From Mariprofundus sp. NF (GTDB lineage: Bacteria; Pseudomonadota; Zetaproteobacteria; Mariprofundales; Mariprofundaceae): DNA of 35,465 nucleotides. Below are positions 12,225 to 20,561 of the stretch, piece after piece. The stretch covers positions 1-35,465 of the forward strand of contig NZ_VWNC01000012.1 of the NCBI RefSeq assembly GCF_013387455.1, in the 5' to 3' direction. How positions within the stretch are numbered: the first letter of the stretch is position 1; the number at the start of each line of letters is the position of its first letter. Both the position numbers and the translations under genes were made by a program. The notes below the pieces were generated by a model. That model had not been told where the DNA came from. It ran no database searches and saw only the letters and a program-made list of their open reading frames with translations.

Positions 12225-12399
12225 AGCCCTGACACTACATATCCCAAATCGGCTTAAATGACTGGATTTCGATGCCGTAATAACCCGGTAGGGTGTGTGT
12301 CATTATTGAGTCAGGTGGCTCAGGTTCATTTACGTGATGAGTGCAGAGTCGTAGCCTTAGGATTTAATGGGTTCAATAGATCATCGGAGTTATTTTTCA

Positions 12400-13608
12400 G
12401 TGTCAAATACAATGGTTCTGGTCATCAATACAGGCAGCTCTTCGATCAAAATGGCGCTGGTGGAGATGCCGTCGGAGAAACTACTCAGTGAGGCTGTGAC
12501 TGAGCGAGTTGGTGAGGCCGGTACAATTCTGAGCTGGAAGGTTGCCGGTGAAACACAACGCTTTGATCTTGCCGGTGCAGACCATCATGTCGCTATGGCG
12601 AAAATGCTGGAAATCCTGTTTGCCAGCGTGGATAGAGCGAGCATTGCCGCAGTGGGGCATCGGGTTGTACATGGCGGCGAGAAATTTATAAAGCCGACTC
12701 TGCTGGATGATGCTGTGATTGCGGAGATCAAGTCCCTCTCGCATCTGGCACCACTGCACAACCCTGCCAACCTGTTGGGTATTCAGGCAGCGATGAAACA
12801 TCTGCCAGTTATTCCCCATATCGCAATTTTTGATACCGCTTTTCATCACGCTATGCCACCCCATGCATGCCTCTATGCGGTACCCTATAGCTGGTACAGT
12901 GACTACGGTGTGCGTCGTTACGGATTTCATGGCAGTAGTCACCACTATGTGGCGCAACAGGCCGCGCTGTTACTTGGCCGTGAGTTTGATGATTGTAATC
13001 TGATCACTGCCCATCTGGGTAATGGTTGCAGTGCTACGGCCATCGCCAACGGCATTAGTGTGGATACCACGATGGGTATGACACCACTGGAAGGGTTAGT
13101 CATGGGTAGTCGCAGTGGCGATGTCGATCCGGGACTGCATGAGTATATGGCCAGAGTCAGTGGTGCTTCGCTGGCAGAGATCAGCGAAGCTTTGAATCGG
13201 CAATCCGGGCTTCTGGGCTTATCGGGCCGGAGCAATGATATGCGCACCTTGCTGGATGCGACCGAAGCTGGCGATGAGAGGGCGGCGTTGGCCGTAGATA
13301 TCTTCTGCTACCGCCTGGCAAAATCACTGGCAGGGCTTGCTGTCGCGTTGCCTCAAATTGATGCCATCGTCTTTACCGGTGGCATTGGTGAACATGCGGC
13401 AGTTGTGCGGGAGAAGACAGTGGCACAACTGGCCATTCTGGGTGTTGCACTTGATGCCGAGAGAAACAGACAACACGGTAGAGCGTCGCATGGCTTTATC
13501 AGTAAGGCTGAGGGTTCTGTTCCTGTTCTGGTTATTGCCACCAGTGAGGAGACCATGATCGCCCGTTATGCATACGAAGTGTTAAAGCGAGAGGAAAATA
13601 TCACATGA
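12400..13608 (+). CDS. ackA: Acetate kinase
   Basis: A 402-residue enzyme that interconverts acetyl phosphate plus ADP and acetate plus ATP. ASKHA-fold motifs are 'VLVINTGSSSIKMAL' at the start, 'AVGHRVVHGGE', 'LAPLHNPANLLGI', 'AIFDTAFHHAMP', 'RRYGFHGSSHHYV', 'TAHLGNGCSATAI', 'DTTMGMTPLEGLVMGSRSGDVDPG' and 'VFTGGIGEHA'. The start is taken as GTG 12400 (MSNTMVLVINTG). GGAG lies 10 bases upstream, and the length and N terminus then match known AckA; ATG 12412 lacks a ribosome binding site. pta overlaps the stop by 4 bases, so the pair is a coupled operon for overflow metabolism or acetate assimilation. Confidence 0.96.
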   Translation: MSNTMVLVINTGSSSIKMALVEMPSEKLLSEAVTERVGEAGTILSWKVAGETQRFDLAGADHHVAMAKMLEILFASVDRASIAAVGHRVVHGGEKFIKPTLLDDAVIAEIKSLSHLAPLHNPANLLGIQAAMKHLPVIPHIAIFDTAFHHAMPPHACLYAVPYSWYSDYGVRRYGFHGSSHHYVAQQAALLLGREFDDCNLITAHLGNGCSATAIANGISVDTTMGMTPLEGLVMGSRSGDVDPGLHEYMARVSGASLAEISEALNRQSGLLGLSGRSNDMRTLLDATEAGDERAALAVDIFCYRLAKSLAGLAVALPQIDAIVFTGGIGEHAAVVREKTVAQLAILGVALDAERNRQHGRASHGFISKAEGSVPVLVIATSEETMIARYAYEVLKREENIT

Positions 13609-15725
13609 GTCACGCATTTCTACTTGTTTCTACCGGAGCCGGGGCAGGTTTGACAACAGTCAGTCTCGGCATGGTGCGGGCGCTGGATCGCATCGGCATT
13701 CGCGCCGGCTTTTACAAGCCGATTGCTCAGCTGCGCGATAGTGATCAGGGCCCGGAACGCTCAACGCGTCTGGTTGAGCACATGATCGACGTCAAAGCAC
13801 CGCAACCGATAAGTCTCAGACGGGCCACCTCGCTGCTGGGATCGGGAAGGGAAGGGCTGCTGATGGAGGAGGTGATTGCACTTTATCAGCAGAGTTCTCG
13901 CCATACCGATGTCGTGATTGTCGAGGGATTGGTCGCTGATGGACATGCCGGTTACGCCACGCGCCTGAATGCTGCCATCGCCCGGGCGCTGGATGCGGAG
14001 GTGATACTGGTTGGTAAACCAGAACCTGATCTGGATGAGTATATTGATATTACTGCCAATGCTTTCAGTGATGCCAATGGTAGCGCGCTGGCCGGTATCA
14101 TTATCAACCAGCTGGGAGCACCTGATGATCAGGAGTCACAGGTGCTGCAGGCTGATGCACTGCAAACCTGTTCCGACAGGCCTGATGCACTGCAAGCCAG
14201 TGGTGAGATGGGACGTCGCTTAGCCAACAGCTCATTCTACAATATTGGATGTATTCCATGGCAGCCGTCATTAATAGCGCCGCGCATGTGTGATATCGCC
14301 AGCTATCTTGGTGCCAAGGTGCTCAGTGAGGGGGATATGCGGTTGCGGCGAGTGCAGCGTATGGAGTTATGCGCACGCACGCTGGCCAATATTCACAGTG
14401 TTTATCAGCCGCATACGTTGTTGATCTTCCCCGGTGATCGTGACGATGTTTTCGTTGCAGCATGCATGGCGGCTATGAATGGCGTGCGTATTGCCGGTAT
14501 TCTGCTGACCGGTGGGTTGAGGCCGAGCTTTGGCATGATGAATCTCTGCGAGCAGGCTCTTCGGACAGGTATCCCACTGTTGCTGGTGGAGAGTAGCTCA
14601 TTTCAGACCGCATCAAAGCTGGCTCGTATGCCTGCTGAGGTGGCGGCTGATGACTTTGATCTTATCGATCAGGCGGTTGATCATGTCGCCAACCATCTGG
14701 ATGCAGGCTGGCTTAAGGCGCGCTGTGCGATTGAGCGTAAACCACGCCTCTCACCGGCAGCATTCCGTTATCAGCTGATTCAGCAGGCATCTCAGTCAAA
14801 GCGGCGCATTGTTCTGCCTGAGGGGGAAGAGCCGCGCACGATTATGGCCGCCTATCAGTGTCAGCAGCGAGGTGTTGCTCACTGCATACTACTGGGGAGC
14901 CCGGAAAAGATTCACCAGATTGCATCCTCTCAGGGCATCACGTTAAGTGATGAGACGATGATTATTGATCCGGTGACTGTGCGGCAGCGATATATTCAAC
15001 CGATGGTGACCTTGCGAGAGCATAAGGGGATGACCAGCCAGATGGCGGAAGATCAGCTGCAGGCTCGAATTGTTCTGGGCACGATGATGCTGGCTATGGA
15101 TGAGGTTGACGGACTGGTTTCAGGTGCGTTGCATACCACCGCTAATACAGTGCGTCCGGCCTTTCAGTTGATCGGCACCAGTGCATCCGCTGAGCTGGTC
15201 TCCTCCATCTTTTTCATGTGTCTGCCCGATCAGGTAGTGGTCTATGGTGATTGCGCCATTAATCCTGATCCTGATGCCAGTCAGTTGGCTGATATTGCTA
15301 TTCAGAGTGCGGACTCAGCCAGTCGTTTTGGTCTGCAGCCAAGGGTGGCGATGATCAGCTATAGCACAGGTGAATCAGGAGCAGGGCTGGATGTGGATAA
15401 GGTGCGACAGGCTACTGCCATGGTCCGAGAGCGCAGGCCGGATCTGATTGTTGACGGGCCACTACAGTATGATGCCGCAGCCATTGTTTCGGTGGGCAAA
15501 AGCAAAGCACCGAAAAGTCAGGTGGCAGGTCAGGCTAACGTGTTTGTATTTCCCGACCTTAATACCGGTAACACCACCTACAAAGCGGTACAGCGAAGTG
15601 CTCATCTCGTCAGTATCGGGCCGATGTTGCAGGGCTTGCGTAAGCCGGTGAATGATCTCTCGCGTGGTGCATCCGTCGAAGATATTGTCTATACCATCGC
15701 CTTGACAGCGATTCAGGCGGGCTGA
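13605..15725 (+). CDS. pta: Phosphate acetyltransferase, long (three-domain) form
   Basis: A 706-residue enzyme exchanging acetyl-CoA and acetyl phosphate. The three-domain form is complete. An N-terminal P-loop/BioD-like domain (STGAGAGLTTVSLG at residues 9-22, lacking the usual Lys as in other long Pta proteins) is followed by a central DRTGG-type regulatory domain (about 225-355, 'LLIFPGDRDDVFVAACMAAMNGVRIAGILLTGG'). The catalytic PTA_PTB domain (about 385-705) contains 'RIVLPEGEEPRTI', 'DGLVSGALHTTANTVRPAFQLIGT', 'VVYGDCAINPDPD', 'MISYSTGESG' and 'DGPLQYDAA'. The ATG overlaps the ackA stop. A short Ala/Asp-rich insertion near residues 183-200 contains two similar 'DALQ' words and looks like local slippage. 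No terminator is visible right after the stop. Confidence 0.96.
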   Translation: MSHAFLLVSTGAGAGLTTVSLGMVRALDRIGIRAGFYKPIAQLRDSDQGPERSTRLVEHMIDVKAPQPISLRRATSLLGSGREGLLMEEVIALYQQSSRHTDVVIVEGLVADGHAGYATRLNAAIARALDAEVILVGKPEPDLDEYIDITANAFSDANGSALAGIIINQLGAPDDQESQVLQADALQTCSDRPDALQASGEMGRRLANSSFYNIGCIPWQPSLIAPRMCDIASYLGAKVLSEGDMRLRRVQRMELCARTLANIHSVYQPHTLLIFPGDRDDVFVAACMAAMNGVRIAGILLTGGLRPSFGMMNLCEQALRTGIPLLLVESSSFQTASKLARMPAEVAADDFDLIDQAVDHVANHLDAGWLKARCAIERKPRLSPAAFRYQLIQQASQSKRRIVLPEGEEPRTIMAAYQCQQRGVAHCILLGSPEKIHQIASSQGITLSDETMIIDPVTVRQRYIQPMVTLREHKGMTSQMAEDQLQARIVLGTMMLAMDEVDGLVSGALHTTANTVRPAFQLIGTSASAELVSSIFFMCLPDQVVVYGDCAINPDPDASQLADIAIQSADSASRFGLQPRVAMISYSTGESGAGLDVDKVRQATAMVRERRPDLIVDGPLQYDAAAIVSVGKSKAPKSQVAGQANVFVFPDLNTGNTTYKAVQRSAHLVSIGPMLQGLRKPVNDLSRGASVEDIVYTIALTAIQAG

Positions 15726-15743
15726 TTTCCCTCGTTCTTTTAC

Positions 15744-15772
15744 TTGCTTATTTCGGCTGAAAAATGTATATT
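15744..15772 (+). promoter_or_regulatory. Sigma-70 promoter of the 6S RNA candidate
   Basis: TTGCTT (15744-15749), exactly 17 bases, TATATT (15767-15772). Predicted initiation at 15779-15781 coincides with the base of the long RNA helix described next. Confidence 0.6.
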
Positions 15773-15779
15773 GTTTTCA

Positions 15780-15996
15780 GAAGCTGCAGTGGCGTTGTGG
15801 CTTATATACTTGGGTCGATACGCTATAATTGGGAGCTTACCTATTCCGGCTGTGTGAATGCCTTTACTGGCGTACCTGATGTCGGAATGACGCGCCCACC
15901 TGAGCAGAAAAGGGTTCAGTTTATATAGGCCACAGCGCCACTGCAGTTACTAAGAACTCCTCCAGGGCCCGCTCTATCGCGGGCTCTGTTTTTTTC
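15780..15996 (+). ncRNA. ssrS: Candidate 6S RNA
   Basis: A free-standing transcript flanked by a promoter (15744-15772) and a terminator (15964-15996). Its ends pair in one long helix: 15784-15808 (CTGCAGTGGCGTTGTGGC and on) with 15922-15946 (TATATAGGCCACAGCGCC and on), 25 consecutive pairs including two G-U, extendable by two more. The interior is a rod with bubbles, closed near the tip by ATTCCG/CGGAAT. The 3' side carries AAAAGGGTTCAG followed by GGCCACAGCGCC, reminiscent of the GGGUUCA...CAGC...GC 3' arm of proteobacterial 6S RNAs. 6S RNA traps sigma-70 RNA polymerase by imitating an open promoter. The identification is from structure and recollection of family features; no covariance search was possible. 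Confidence 0.68.
15964..15996 (+). terminator. Rho-independent terminator of the 6S RNA candidate
   Basis: CAGGGCCCGC and GCGGGCTCTG form a 10-base-pair stem (one G-U) around TCTATC, followed by T7. Confidence 0.9.
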
Positions 15997-16050: not shown

Positions 16051-16178
16051 TTAACAGATGATTAACCCACCTCTTAGATGGAGCTCGCTACGGTTTGTCG
16101 CGTCTGGCGCTACTCCTCCCTCCCCTCCCTAGTGTTTCGCGTCAGACATTAGGCTCCGGCATCTGCCGGAGCCTTTTT
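16051..16178 (+). ncRNA. Possible small RNA with a C-rich (anti-Shine-Dalgarno) loop
   Basis: A weak promoter match TTAACA (16051-16056)-18-TAGATG (16075-16080) would start a transcript near 16087. A 9-bp stem GTCTGGCGC/GCGTCAGAC (16102-16110 with 16139-16147) and an inner ACT/AGT present an all-pyrimidine loop CCTCCCTCCCCTCCCT (16115-16130). A terminator hairpin follows at 16151-16178. C-rich loops of this kind are used by several trans-acting small RNAs to mask ribosome binding sites. There is no reading frame here. It could instead be an untranslated leader or a remnant. Confidence 0.4.
16151..16178 (+). terminator. Rho-independent terminator
   Basis: GGCTCCGGCA-TC-TGCCGGAGCC, ten perfect pairs with a tight loop, then T5. 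Confidence 0.9.
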
Positions 16179-16441: not shown

Positions 16442-16996
16442 ATGATGTGTATTTGGCGATGCAGATGGGTGAACGTGATCCCGCTTCTGGCAGCTCTTTT
16501 TGTTGCTGTCTGTGGAACTGCATCTGCAGCGGAAACGGACACATTGAAGGTGCAGATGGATGAGAAGGTCATCTATTGTGCTGCCACCTTAAAAGATAGT
16601 GATGAAGTTTTTTTCCATGCCCTGAAAGATGGCATTCCCGTTGCCACCGTATGGAACGTACAGGTCGACAGACTCCGGGAGTACTGGCTGAATAAAGGTA
16701 TAGCCGGCATTGTGGTAGTTCGCCGGGTGGTCCCTGATCTGTTGTCACGCAGCTGGTTACTGGAGGATCAGGCCAGTGGCATCTCCCGCCGCGTCTATAC
16801 GGCTTCCGAAGTGAGCCACTTCCTTTCAAATCTTGATCATTTCCCGGTTCTGGATCGCACTCTCCTTACTGCCAATACAGTTTATCTGATGCGTGCATCA
16901 GTGGAGCTGCACACAGGTGAAATGAATGATGCCTGGTGGAATGAGTTGATGAAACCGGCATATGCCACCATGCAGCAGGAGTTTTCGCTGCCGTGA
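16442..16996 (+). CDS. DUF4390 periplasmic protein
   Basis: A 184-residue exported protein with a hydrophobic signal sequence ending TASA/AE near residue 30. The mature part is beta-rich with Trp and acidic residues: 'DEKVIYCAATL', 'GIPVATVWNVQVDRLREYW', 'RSWLLEDQASGISRRVYTASEVSHFLSNLDHFPV', and an ending 'YLMRASVELHTGEMNDAWW'. This matches DUF4390, a family repeatedly found immediately upstream of NtrY-type sensor kinases; a role in sensing or regulating the kinase is a reasonable inference from position only. Two in-frame ATGs (16442, 16445) and a GTG at 16469 are possible starts; none has a good ribosome binding site, and the GTG would give the most typical signal peptide. ntrY overlaps the stop by 4 bases. 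Confidence 0.8.
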   Translation: MMCIWRCRWVNVIPLLAALFVAVCGTASAAETDTLKVQMDEKVIYCAATLKDSDEVFFHALKDGIPVATVWNVQVDRLREYWLNKGIAGIVVVRRVVPDLLSRSWLLEDQASGISRRVYTASEVSHFLSNLDHFPVLDRTLLTANTVYLMRASVELHTGEMNDAWWNELMKPAYATMQQEFSLP

Positions 16997-19155
16997 GGCG
17001 ATTGGGTGTTATGCGGCTGATCCCGCTCTTGATGTCTCTAACGCTGTTGACGATTACAGTCATTCTGTGGCCAACAGCAGAGGGTGAGTCGGGCCTGCTT
17101 GCGTGGGTCAATGTCGGGCTGATGCTGATTCTATCACTGCTGCTGATTCAGTACGGTATTAAGCTTGTTCGTGAGCGACGGGAACCACCTCCGGGTTCAC
17201 GTCTGCGTGCCAAACTGGTCATTGCTCTGGTAGGCATGCTGCTTATTCCGGCCATGGTTATTCAGATGGCAGCCAACCAGATGGTCGAGCGAGGCATGGA
17301 TGTCTGGTTTGATGTGCGTGTGGATACCCTGCTGGATCGTGCTCTGAATCTGGCGCAGGGTTTTTATGAACGCGTTGAGATCGATATGAAGCGCAGCATG
17401 CTTAACTATATCAGCGATAGTACGCTGATTGAGGCTGCCTCGGGGAATCTGGGTTACAGTGCTGTAACCACCTATCTCTCTGGAATTCGAGGTGTTGAGG
17501 GGTGGCAGAAAGCCGAATTGTTCGATATTAATGAGCTTCTTGTTGGTGGTGTGCAGCTGGGTGAGCTCAGTGCGCTGCAGGCTGAACCATTGAGTGAATC
17601 GGCAAAACTGTCCATGCGACTGGGCAGGGTGGCGACAGAGCTTTTGACTCGCGATGGTGGAGAGGTGGCAGTGGGTTACGCCCCGATTGTTGGCCCGACC
17701 TCAGTGATTGGTCTGTTACGTGTTGAGATTCGCCTGCCTGCCGGTGTGATTCAGAATGCCCGTGCGGTCGAGTCCGATTATCGCAGCTACCGTCAACTGG
17801 AGCATAATCGCCAGAATATCCGTGAGACATTTACCCATGTGATGCTGTTTGTGACACTGCTGGTTGTACTGGTAGCGGGTCTGGTTGGTCTTCTATTTGC
17901 ACGCAGGTTAACCGCGCCGGTCGGGGATCTTGCCGATGCACTCAGACGCGTCACTGAAGGGGATCTGAATGTCGTGATTTCCGAATCCTCCCAGGATGAG
18001 CTGGGTTCTCTGGCACGCTCCTTTAATACGATGGCAAATCGTCTGAAAATGAATGTGGAGGCGATTGAGCAGGCACAACAGGATCTGACCAAAGCGCTGG
18101 ATAATAGTCGGCAGCGGCAATATGTACTGGAATCACTGTTGGCCAACCTGCATACAGGCGTGCTTCTGGTTGATGGTGGTGGACGGGTGCGCCTGCTTAA
18201 TCAGGCGGTAAGGGAGATTCTACAGCTGCCGGATAACTGGATGCCAAGTGTCGATATTTTGCAGGCGACACAGGGAAGTCTGCACGATATTGGCGAATTT
18301 TATGATGAACTTAGCCATCAGCAGGAGGATCACCTGCAGCGGGAGTTTGATATTGAACTCTCTGAAGGGCGTAGTCTGCATGTGCTGGCGCGAGGAGCAC
18401 GGCTGAGTGAGACCGGCGCCAGTGGCTTTTCGGGTTATCTGCTGGTGATTGATGATATCTCCGATCTCGCCGAGGCACAGCGTAACAAAGCCTGGGCTGA
18501 AGTGGCGCGTCGTCTGGCTCATGAGATCAAAAATCCACTGACGCCGATCAAACTCTCTGCCGAACGGCTGCAGCGCCGTTTCCGCTCCCAGGTGGATGAT
18601 GAGAAGGTGTTTGATGTCTGTACCCAAGCGATCATTGCTCAGGTGGAGCGGTTGCAGCGTTTGATTGCCGACTTCTCAACACTGGCAAGAATGCCGCAGC
18701 CGAAAATCAGGCAGACAGCTGTGGCATCACTGCTGCGTGAGATGGATGAGCTGTTTAACAGTTATCGCCGCCTTGATGTAAGCCCGTGTGATGCTGATTG
18801 GAACTGCTGTTGTGATCCCGATCAGGTGCGTCAGGTGCTGATTAATCTGATGGATAATGCGCTTGCAGCAACTGAAGGTATGGATGGTAAGGTTGTTCGA
18901 CTCTATGCCCGGATGAGTGAAGTGTGCATTGAGTGGCATGTTGAGGATGATGGTGAAGGCATTGAGGCCGCATCGGCATCTCAGCTATTTGAAGCTTACT
19001 ACTCCACTAAGAGTAATGGTTCGGGTCTGGGGCTGGCTATCGCCAAGCGGATTGCCGAGGATCACGGTGGACGATTAAATCTGGTTTCACCTGCGAAACC
19101 AACACACTTCTGCCTGCGCTTGCCCAGGCAGGTGGAAGAGATGGAGGAATCATGA
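16993..19155 (+). CDS. ntrY: NtrY-type sensor histidine kinase
   Basis: A 720-residue membrane kinase. Two close N-terminal helices (about 6-25 and 32-55) and a third (about 70-90) precede a periplasmic sensor region of about 180 residues. The next helix (about 278-302) leads to a HAMP domain (about 300-352: 'RRLTAPVGDLADALRRVTEGDL') and a PAS domain (about 370-480). HisKA has the phosphoacceptor His510 in 'RRLAHEIKNPLTPIKLSAE', and the HATPase ends with 'NLMDNALAA', 'DDGEGIEA' and 'GSGLGLAIAKRIAEDHGG'. The layout is that of NtrY, a nitrogen- or redox-responsive kinase. GTG 16993 overlaps the upstream gene and ntrX overlaps the stop, so the system is translated as a coupled unit. Confidence 0.92.
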   Translation: MRRLGVMRLIPLLMSLTLLTITVILWPTAEGESGLLAWVNVGLMLILSLLLIQYGIKLVRERREPPPGSRLRAKLVIALVGMLLIPAMVIQMAANQMVERGMDVWFDVRVDTLLDRALNLAQGFYERVEIDMKRSMLNYISDSTLIEAASGNLGYSAVTTYLSGIRGVEGWQKAELFDINELLVGGVQLGELSALQAEPLSESAKLSMRLGRVATELLTRDGGEVAVGYAPIVGPTSVIGLLRVEIRLPAGVIQNARAVESDYRSYRQLEHNRQNIRETFTHVMLFVTLLVVLVAGLVGLLFARRLTAPVGDLADALRRVTEGDLNVVISESSQDELGSLARSFNTMANRLKMNVEAIEQAQQDLTKALDNSRQRQYVLESLLANLHTGVLLVDGGGRVRLLNQAVREILQLPDNWMPSVDILQATQGSLHDIGEFYDELSHQQEDHLQREFDIELSEGRSLHVLARGARLSETGASGFSGYLLVIDDISDLAEAQRNKAWAEVARRLAHEIKNPLTPIKLSAERLQRRFRSQVDDEKVFDVCTQAIIAQVERLQRLIADFSTLARMPQPKIRQTAVASLLREMDELFNSYRRLDVSPCDADWNCCCDPDQVRQVLINLMDNALAATEGMDGKVVRLYARMSEVCIEWHVEDDGEGIEAASASQLFEAYYSTKSNGSGLGLAIAKRIAEDHGGRLNLVSPAKPTHFCLRLPRQVEEMEES

Positions 19156-20561
19156 CCGCACGAATCATGATTGTGGATGATGAAGAACCGATTCGCGACT
19201 CACTTCAGGGACTCTTTGAAGATGAGGGTTATCTGGTGGTTTCTGCAGCATCTGGCGAAGAGGCGATGGCCAGACTGCGTAAACAGAGCGTTGACTGTGT
19301 GTTGCTAGATATCTGGATGCCGGGTATCGATGGCCTGGAGACGCTGAGTCGTATTCATCAGGTTGATGCCAATCTGCCGGTGATTATGATGAGTGGACAT
19401 GCCACGATTGATACCGCTGTACGCGCAACCCGTCAGGGTGCGTTTGATTTTGTCGAGAAACCACTCTCATTTGATCGTCTGATGATTCTCTGCCGTAACG
19501 CGGTACAGAAGCGCCGTCTGGAGCAGGAGAACAGTGACCTTAAACGGCAGGAGAAAGACCACCACAGCCGCAGAGAGTTGATCGGTCAAAGCGCAGTTAT
19601 CCGCGAAGTAAAAGCCCTGATCAAAAGGGTGGCTCTCTCCGATTCGCCTGTGCTTATCGTCGGAGAACATGGCACAGGAAAAGCCGTTGCGGCTACACTT
19701 CTGCATGAGGCTTCCAAGCGCAAAGATGGCCCTTTTGTCGAGGTGAATACAGCCAGTGTTATTGTTAATCGCATGGACTCTGAGCTGTTTGGCCATGAGA
19801 AAGGTGCCTTTACCGGCGCACTGCATCCGCAACGTGGCCGTTTTGAATCGGCCAACGGTGGAACCCTCTTTTTTGATGAGGTGACCGAGCTTAGCCTAAG
19901 TGCACAGGCCAAAATTCTGCGTGTGATGCAGGAGCGGGTGGTGCAGCGCTTGGGCAATCCCACTCCGATGCCTGCCAATGTTCGCCTGATCGCTGCCAGC
20001 TCCCACGATCTGGAGCAGGTGCTCAGGGATGGGCAGTTGCGTGAGGATTTTTACTATCGTTTGAATGTCGTTTCCATTCGTATGCCATCACTGAGGGAGC
20101 GCATTGAAGATATGCCGCTACTTGTCGAAACGCTGGCAGCTGAGCAGGCTAACGAACTGGGAGGAGAGCCCGTGCGCTTCAGTTCAGAAGTACTCAGTGA
20201 ATTAATGGCATACCATTGGCCGGGTAATGTCCGTGAATTGCGCAACTATATTGAGCGTTGTCATATCCTCATGCCTGGCGAAGAGATGACACGTGAAAGC
20301 ATGTTGCCGCCGGATCAGTCCACTACCCAGATCTCCCACAGCACTACGGCTGCAAAGGCATCTGTCGCCATGTCCGGTGTCGAGGCCGACAGCTTTCATG
20401 AGGCACGCGAAGCCTTTGAGCGCACCTACCTTTTACAAAGTCTGGAAAAACACGAATGGAACATCAGTCGTACGGCTGCCGATATCGGCATGGAACGAAG
20501 CCAGCTACATCGCAAGATCAAAGCGTTCGGGCTCGTTCCGCCTGAGAAGGAGTCCTTATGA
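19152..20561 (+). CDS. ntrX: NtrX-type sigma-54-dependent response regulator
   Basis: A 469-residue regulator. The receiver domain has the acidic pocket Asp9/Asp10, phosphoacceptor Asp53, Ser81 and Lys103. The AAA+ domain has Walker A GEHGTGKA (171-178), an intact sigma-54-contacting loop GAFTGA (218-223), Walker B 'LFFDE' and arginine-finger segments 'REDFYYRLNVVSIRMP' and 'RERIEDMPLL'. A C-terminal Fis-type helix-turn-helix ('EKHEWNISRTAADIGMERSQLHRKIKAFGL', about 433-465) binds DNA. The retained GAFTGA argues that this protein can activate sigma-54 promoters, one candidate for which lies at 25820 in this same window. It overlaps ntrY by 4 bases and trkA by 4 bases. Confidence 0.94.
   Translation: MTARIMIVDDEEPIRDSLQGLFEDEGYLVVSAASGEEAMARLRKQSVDCVLLDIWMPGIDGLETLSRIHQVDANLPVIMMSGHATIDTAVRATRQGAFDFVEKPLSFDRLMILCRNAVQKRRLEQENSDLKRQEKDHHSRRELIGQSAVIREVKALIKRVALSDSPVLIVGEHGTGKAVAATLLHEASKRKDGPFVEVNTASVIVNRMDSELFGHEKGAFTGALHPQRGRFESANGGTLFFDEVTELSLSAQAKILRVMQERVVQRLGNPTPMPANVRLIAASSHDLEQVLRDGQLREDFYYRLNVVSIRMPSLRERIEDMPLLVETLAAEQANELGGEPVRFSSEVLSELMAYHWPGNVRELRNYIERCHILMPGEEMTRESMLPPDQSTTQISHSTTAAKASVAMSGVEADSFHEAREAFERTYLLQSLEKHEWNISRTAADIGMERSQLHRKIKAFGLVPPEKESL

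Follow-up and report, generated by a model that had tools for sequence, protein, structure and literature searches.

Locus and gene architecture

The intergenic DNA between pta and the ntrYX operon of the iron-oxidizing bacterium Mariprofundus sp. NF raises the question of whether it encodes a free-standing 6S RNA, as an original prediction had it, and how such a gene would relate to the 6S gene at zapA. We analyzed a stretch of 35,465 nucleotides, hereafter the window (contig C12 of the 2.53-Mb genome), in which ackA (12367–13608), pta (13605–15725), the candidate RNA gene and genes for a DUF4390 protein (16442–16996), an NtrY-like kinase (16993–19155), an NtrX-like sigma-54 activator (19152–20561) and TrkA follow one another. 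The encoded Pta shares 94% identity with its counterpart in Mariprofundus sp. KV and 71–82% with those of other Mariprofundus and Zetaproteobacteria, which marks the genome as a Mariprofundus-like zetaproteobacterium.

All elements of the RNA gene lie on the + strand. The predicted −35/−10 pair was located at 15744–15772 as a sigma-70-like promoter, with TTGCTT at 15744–15749, a 17-nt spacer and TATATT at 15767–15772, and both boxes and spacing are kept in three relatives (G015, G007 and G011; 78–95% identity across 15740–15779). Because its −35 box is weak, this promoter is not listed by a simple promoter scan; from the position of the boxes, transcription is expected to start at about 15779–15780. 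The RNA itself occupies 15781–15950 and is followed by an intrinsic terminator at 15963–15995 (10-bp stem within 15963–15988, then T7) that is kept in four species.

A separate conserved sRNA candidate lies outside the 6S RNA at 16102–16174 (+ strand), with a hairpin at 16102–16147 and its own terminator at 16151–16174. The hairpin exposes a C-rich, anti-Shine-Dalgarno-like loop, TCCTCCCTCCCCTCCCTAG, at 16114–16132 (UCCUCCCUCCCCUCCCUAG). The candidate is 87–94% identical among four species, compared with 32–44% for the next 150 bases, and its core was found with at most one mismatch in 22 of 78 genomes of the class, as a single copy in 21 of them. It often stands upstream of DUF4390, in the window upstream of DUF4390-ntrYX. 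Rfam returned weak resemblances to anti-hemB (E 0.02) and ar14 (E 0.49).

Assignment to the 6S family

A covariance search with RF00013, suggested with the original prediction, matched the window RNA over its full length at 43.0 bits (E 3.2e-7). This is 3.4 bits short of the gathering score of 46.4, so that a default Rfam scan is silent at the locus and the 6S membership of the RNA rests on its clade, the second zetaproteobacterial family described below, in which scores above gathering do occur (e.g., 60.3 bits for G004_C46). A covariance model built from this family (R1), of which the window sequence itself forms part, scored the RNA at 160.9 bits. The motif GRGYCGAU or a close variant was present in 56 of 57 copies of the family and in 34 of 35 ssrS genes. 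It belongs to the 5′ bubble, in which E. coli 6S RNA starts pRNA synthesis (U44); in the window RNA the equivalent segment at 15812–15819 is slightly divergent, reading GGGUCGAU instead of GAGCCGAU. Together with the tree and covariation given below, which tie the RNA by common ancestry to other 6S RNAs, these features bear out a free-standing 6S RNA between pta and ntrYX: judged from its sequence, the locus is a real 6S-family RNA gene, a paralogue within a second family that has expanded.

Fold and covariation

The predicted fold is the rod typical of 6S RNA, with a closing stem, a large central bubble and an apical stem-loop. Its closing helix, originally put at 25–27 bp (15784–15808 with 15922–15946), comprises 27 perfect base pairs, 15782–15808 with 15922–15948, and its 5′ arm would mimic the downstream duplex of a promoter. 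The interior of bubbles and short stems was also recovered: the apical arm UGGGAGC ... GCGCCCA with its inner stems spans 15830–15897 (consensus helices 3–5) and would mimic the upstream promoter, and the 3′ side of the central bubble at 15900–15919 is hairpin-capable in the MFE fold (CUGAGC-8 nt-GUUCAG).

The folding energy of −81 kcal/mol was far below that of 200 dinucleotide shuffles (−52.3 ± 3.7; z = −7.7), none of which folded as well. Across 55 second-family homologues, two-sided changes occurred in 32 of 44 consensus pairs, compared with 15.1 ± 2.2 in shuffles (0 of 500 as high), although kinship among sequences alone can beat shuffles without any structure. A control with slid partners retains this relatedness, and there 38–43% of cells were paired as against 95.8% in the consensus structure, a percentage biased towards structure by its derivation from the same alignment, which makes the count of two-sided changes the stronger measure. 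The search for compensatory helix changes among relatives was likewise borne out, at two pairs of the long helix among the four pta-linked orthologues. The structure of the window RNA is thus more than a chance fold.

The longest uninterrupted helix run is 27 bp in the window RNA, whereas its median is 20 bp among second-family copies and 14 bp among ssrS genes. Such an unusually long perfect helix, a score below gathering and the many diverged paralogues would all suit a 6S-derived RNA that no longer binds polymerase and acts otherwise, for instance as an RNase III substrate or as an antisense or sponge RNA. We regard this as improbable, as the bubble sequences that matter in 6S RNA, GGGYCGAU, CCCACCU and AGGGUUCAG, rank with the best-conserved columns in the family and a mere duplex would need none of them.

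Four 6S genes in one genome

RF00013 found four full-length places in the genome, the window copy and three on contig C1. The standard ssrS lies at C1:28005–28182 (62.2 bits) between zapA and fthC (ygfA), its first bases overlapping the zapA reading frame. The other two, at C1:321602 (L195; 39.8 bits) and C1:299049 (L194; 35.6 bits), are away from both zapA and pta and carry sigma-54-type promoters and C-rich terminator loops. The window gene, placed between pta and DUF4390-ntrYX and not at zapA-fthC, is therefore one of three paralogues additional to ssrS. The original prediction of a different genomic context holds for this gene, but not as a replacement of the zapA-linked copy, which stays where it is. 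It had also named, as grounds against itself, a clear 6S gene elsewhere combined with no RF00013 match here or in relatives; ssrS supplies the former, but both the window and relatives match RF00013.

On the − strand at C1:318709–318737 (L195 100–190), a sigma-70-like promoter is followed directly by a C-rich terminator hairpin with no 6S body. A hidden 6S gene was considered at this site and rejected, none being there; the site may be what is left of a lost copy, or it may encode a mini-RNA.

A second 6S family across Zetaproteobacteria

When RF00013 was applied to 61 relatives, most well-assembled genomes of the genus contained three to five places, and other genomes usually one. The 92 zetaproteobacterial matches comprised 35 zapA-linked ssrS genes, with the canonical ssrS at zapA-fthC in relatives, and 57 free-standing copies in varied contexts, which we define as the second family (class B, "6S-2-like"). 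R1 detected matches in 75 of 78 genomes of the class, ssrS included, and the best genomes had five to seven matches including ssrS; second-family copies reach up to five or six per genome. In a survey of 200 Pseudomonadota genomes, more than one 6S match was found in only 3 of 150 outside the class, a count that may miss weak additional copies because the filters were strict. An IQ-TREE phylogeny of 111 RNAs separated ssrS from the second family at 100/100.

Within this tree, the window copy and those of G015, G007 and G011 formed a monophyletic pta branch (100/99), all four placed after pta and before DUF4390. Their promoter, RNA and terminator are 78–98% identical among the four species, against 39–65% in the spacer behind. 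At its pta locus, Mariprofundus sp. KV (L036) has a 6S gene, which other Zetaproteobacteria (L035, L037–L041 and L043) lack at this place. A match near pta in M. micogutta (L042 6749–6919) was rejected as a pta-linked copy, being the ssrS of that genome; it lies about 0.6 kb behind pta, making pta and ssrS close neighbours there. A plasmid search with the pta-linked locus gave no matches.

This conservation bears on two further explanations. A mobile, MITE-like palindromic element, or a chance or terminator palindrome, could account for perfect terminal inverted repeats and for several copies per genome, some of them clustered; yet the copies have diverged, show compensatory changes over the full length of the rod and possess promoters and terminators of their own. 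In addition, four species keep the pta site, where the RNA is better conserved than the sequence around it, and Rfam identifies 6S, so that we give this explanation almost no weight. Scarcely more credible is a decaying duplicate without function: paralogue turnover is visible, as in the lone C-rich terminator at C1:318709, but the pta copy retains its promoter, helix pairing and terminator in four species.

The terminator of most second-family copies follows the pattern GGCCTGCC-(C-rich loop, CCCTCCCC)-GGCAGGCC-T(n), from which that of the pta branch differs in being plain. In sequence, this C-rich loop is similar to anti-Shine-Dalgarno motifs, for example CCUCCUCCC in the alpha-r14 RNAs (PMC10746234).

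In a genome of another order (G045), three extra RF00013 matches (L197, L198 and L199; 47–53 bits) lie in related segments, 83–99% identical over about 800 bases, beside a gene for a ParB-domain protein and genes that may be phage-like. These may represent 6S-like RNA on mobile or prophage DNA; the segments had no match in a phage collection.

Sigma-54-type promoters of second-family copies

Many second-family copies are preceded by TTTGGCAY-N5-TATGCT, which corresponds to a sigma-54 −24/−12 element. In the first set, where it was noticed, the element stood before 27 of 57 second-family copies (expected 0.58) and 0 of 35 ssrS genes (expected 0.70). An independent set of further copies, mainly from other genera, gave 16 of 30 (expected 0.34); the 30 include a single ssrS, and the 16 include a site at 34 nt, farther away than is usual. 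With a limit of 24 nt, the sigma-54 type accounts for 42 of 85 second-family copies, at a fixed distance; TGG and TGCT are invariant in these 42, and A is preferred 13 nt after the GC. The tree calls for at least 15 promoter changes, and rpoN is present in every zetaproteobacterial genome of the first set that carries sigma-54-type copies.

In the genome of the window, the strict pattern occurred eight times, against none in a reversed control, and two of the eight belong to the C1 6S genes. A GG-N10-GC promoter 13–24 nt before the RNA is accordingly present at both C1 paralogues and absent at the window copy, which is of the sigma-70 type. Misread −35 boxes were rejected as a source of these sites in view of the invariant TGG and TGCT and the exact 10-nt GG–GC spacing in 42 copies, that spacing being a condition of the search and TGCT not, and of the eight-to-none control. 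These patterns indicate that about half of the second-family copies appear to be sigma-54-driven, which is unusual. The sigma-54-type copies yielded no UAS motif shared by all of them; one genus has a recurring inverted repeat, TTGAC-N6/7-GTCAA, some 150 nt before the 6S RNA (L239, L240, L244, L247–L249, L251 and L255), a plausible candidate for the enhancer at which a sigma-54 activator would bind.

Proposed function and comparison with known 6S systems

The window gene is very probably a 6S paralogue of about 170–215 nt with its own sigma-70-type promoter and terminator, belonging to a second family beside ssrS and acting in the manner of 6S RNA. It would be transcribed from its own promoter after pta and stopped at its own terminator. 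By homology, the central bubble of the rod would imitate an open promoter, and the RNA would bind the housekeeping RNA polymerase holoenzyme and keep it off DNA promoters until the polymerase, starting at GGGUCGAU in the 5′ bubble, copies a short pRNA and the RNA is released. The putative pRNA would begin opposite 15819 as 5′-AUCGACCC... (5′-AUCGACCCAAG...). In gammaproteobacterial 6S RNA, the downstream helix is unwound as pRNA is made, which allows a hairpin to form in the 3′ bubble (PMC8876501), and a comparable hairpin is possible at 15900–15919 of the window RNA. Since unwinding a continuous 27-bp closing helix should be costlier, pRNA-driven release is predicted to be harder than for ssrS.

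We infer that the paralogues differ in when they are made, and we lean slightly towards a sigma-factor switchboard, in which ssrS is joined by paralogues of which about half would use sigma-54 holoenzyme with an enhancer-bound activator and half sigma-70, the window copy being the constitutive or growth-phase branch. If so, the RNA made in response to a sigma-54 signal would tie up sigma-70 polymerase and so shift transcription in favour of alternative sigma factors. 6S RNA is usually encoded by a single gene and transcribed by the housekeeping polymerase that it inhibits. A class in which genomes carry as many as six paralogues, half of them under sigma-54 promoters, would show that 6S output can be coupled to specific signals, and would offer direct access to the division of labour among 6S RNAs and to the dependence of pRNA release on the closing helix. 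Our literature search found no 6S RNA described with Mariprofundus and, in the titles and abstracts covered, no sigma-54-driven 6S gene; earlier surveys (Wehner 2014, Barrick 2005) may list these genes. As far as this literature shows, and with priority claimed to that extent, the novelty lies in the expansion across the class and in the sigma-54 promoters that recur within it.

The window RNA shares with E. coli and other gammaproteobacterial 6S RNAs (ssrS, RF00013) a rod built of a closing stem, a central bubble and an apical arm, the bubble motifs GRGYCGAU and CACCU..AGGGUUCA, and a full-length RF00013 alignment. Its gene differs in lying away from zapA-fthC, in having its own promoter and a separate terminator, in its length of about 170 nt and in existing besides ssrS, and its uninterrupted 27-bp closing helix contrasts with the interrupted arms of classical 6S RNAs. 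Two-copy 6S systems are known from Bacillus and Legionella. Bacillus 6S-1 and 6S-2 are likewise diverged paralogues encoded by independent genes in one genome, whereas a zetaproteobacterial genome can hold as many as five or six copies of the second family, of which about half have promoters of the sigma-54 type. Legionella pneumophila, with 6S and 6S2, provides a second 6S gene in a proteobacterium, reported to be differentially expressed (PMC3048289); it has two genes only, and the parts of that report consulted mention no sigma-54 promoter, whereas the zetaproteobacterial family is class-wide.
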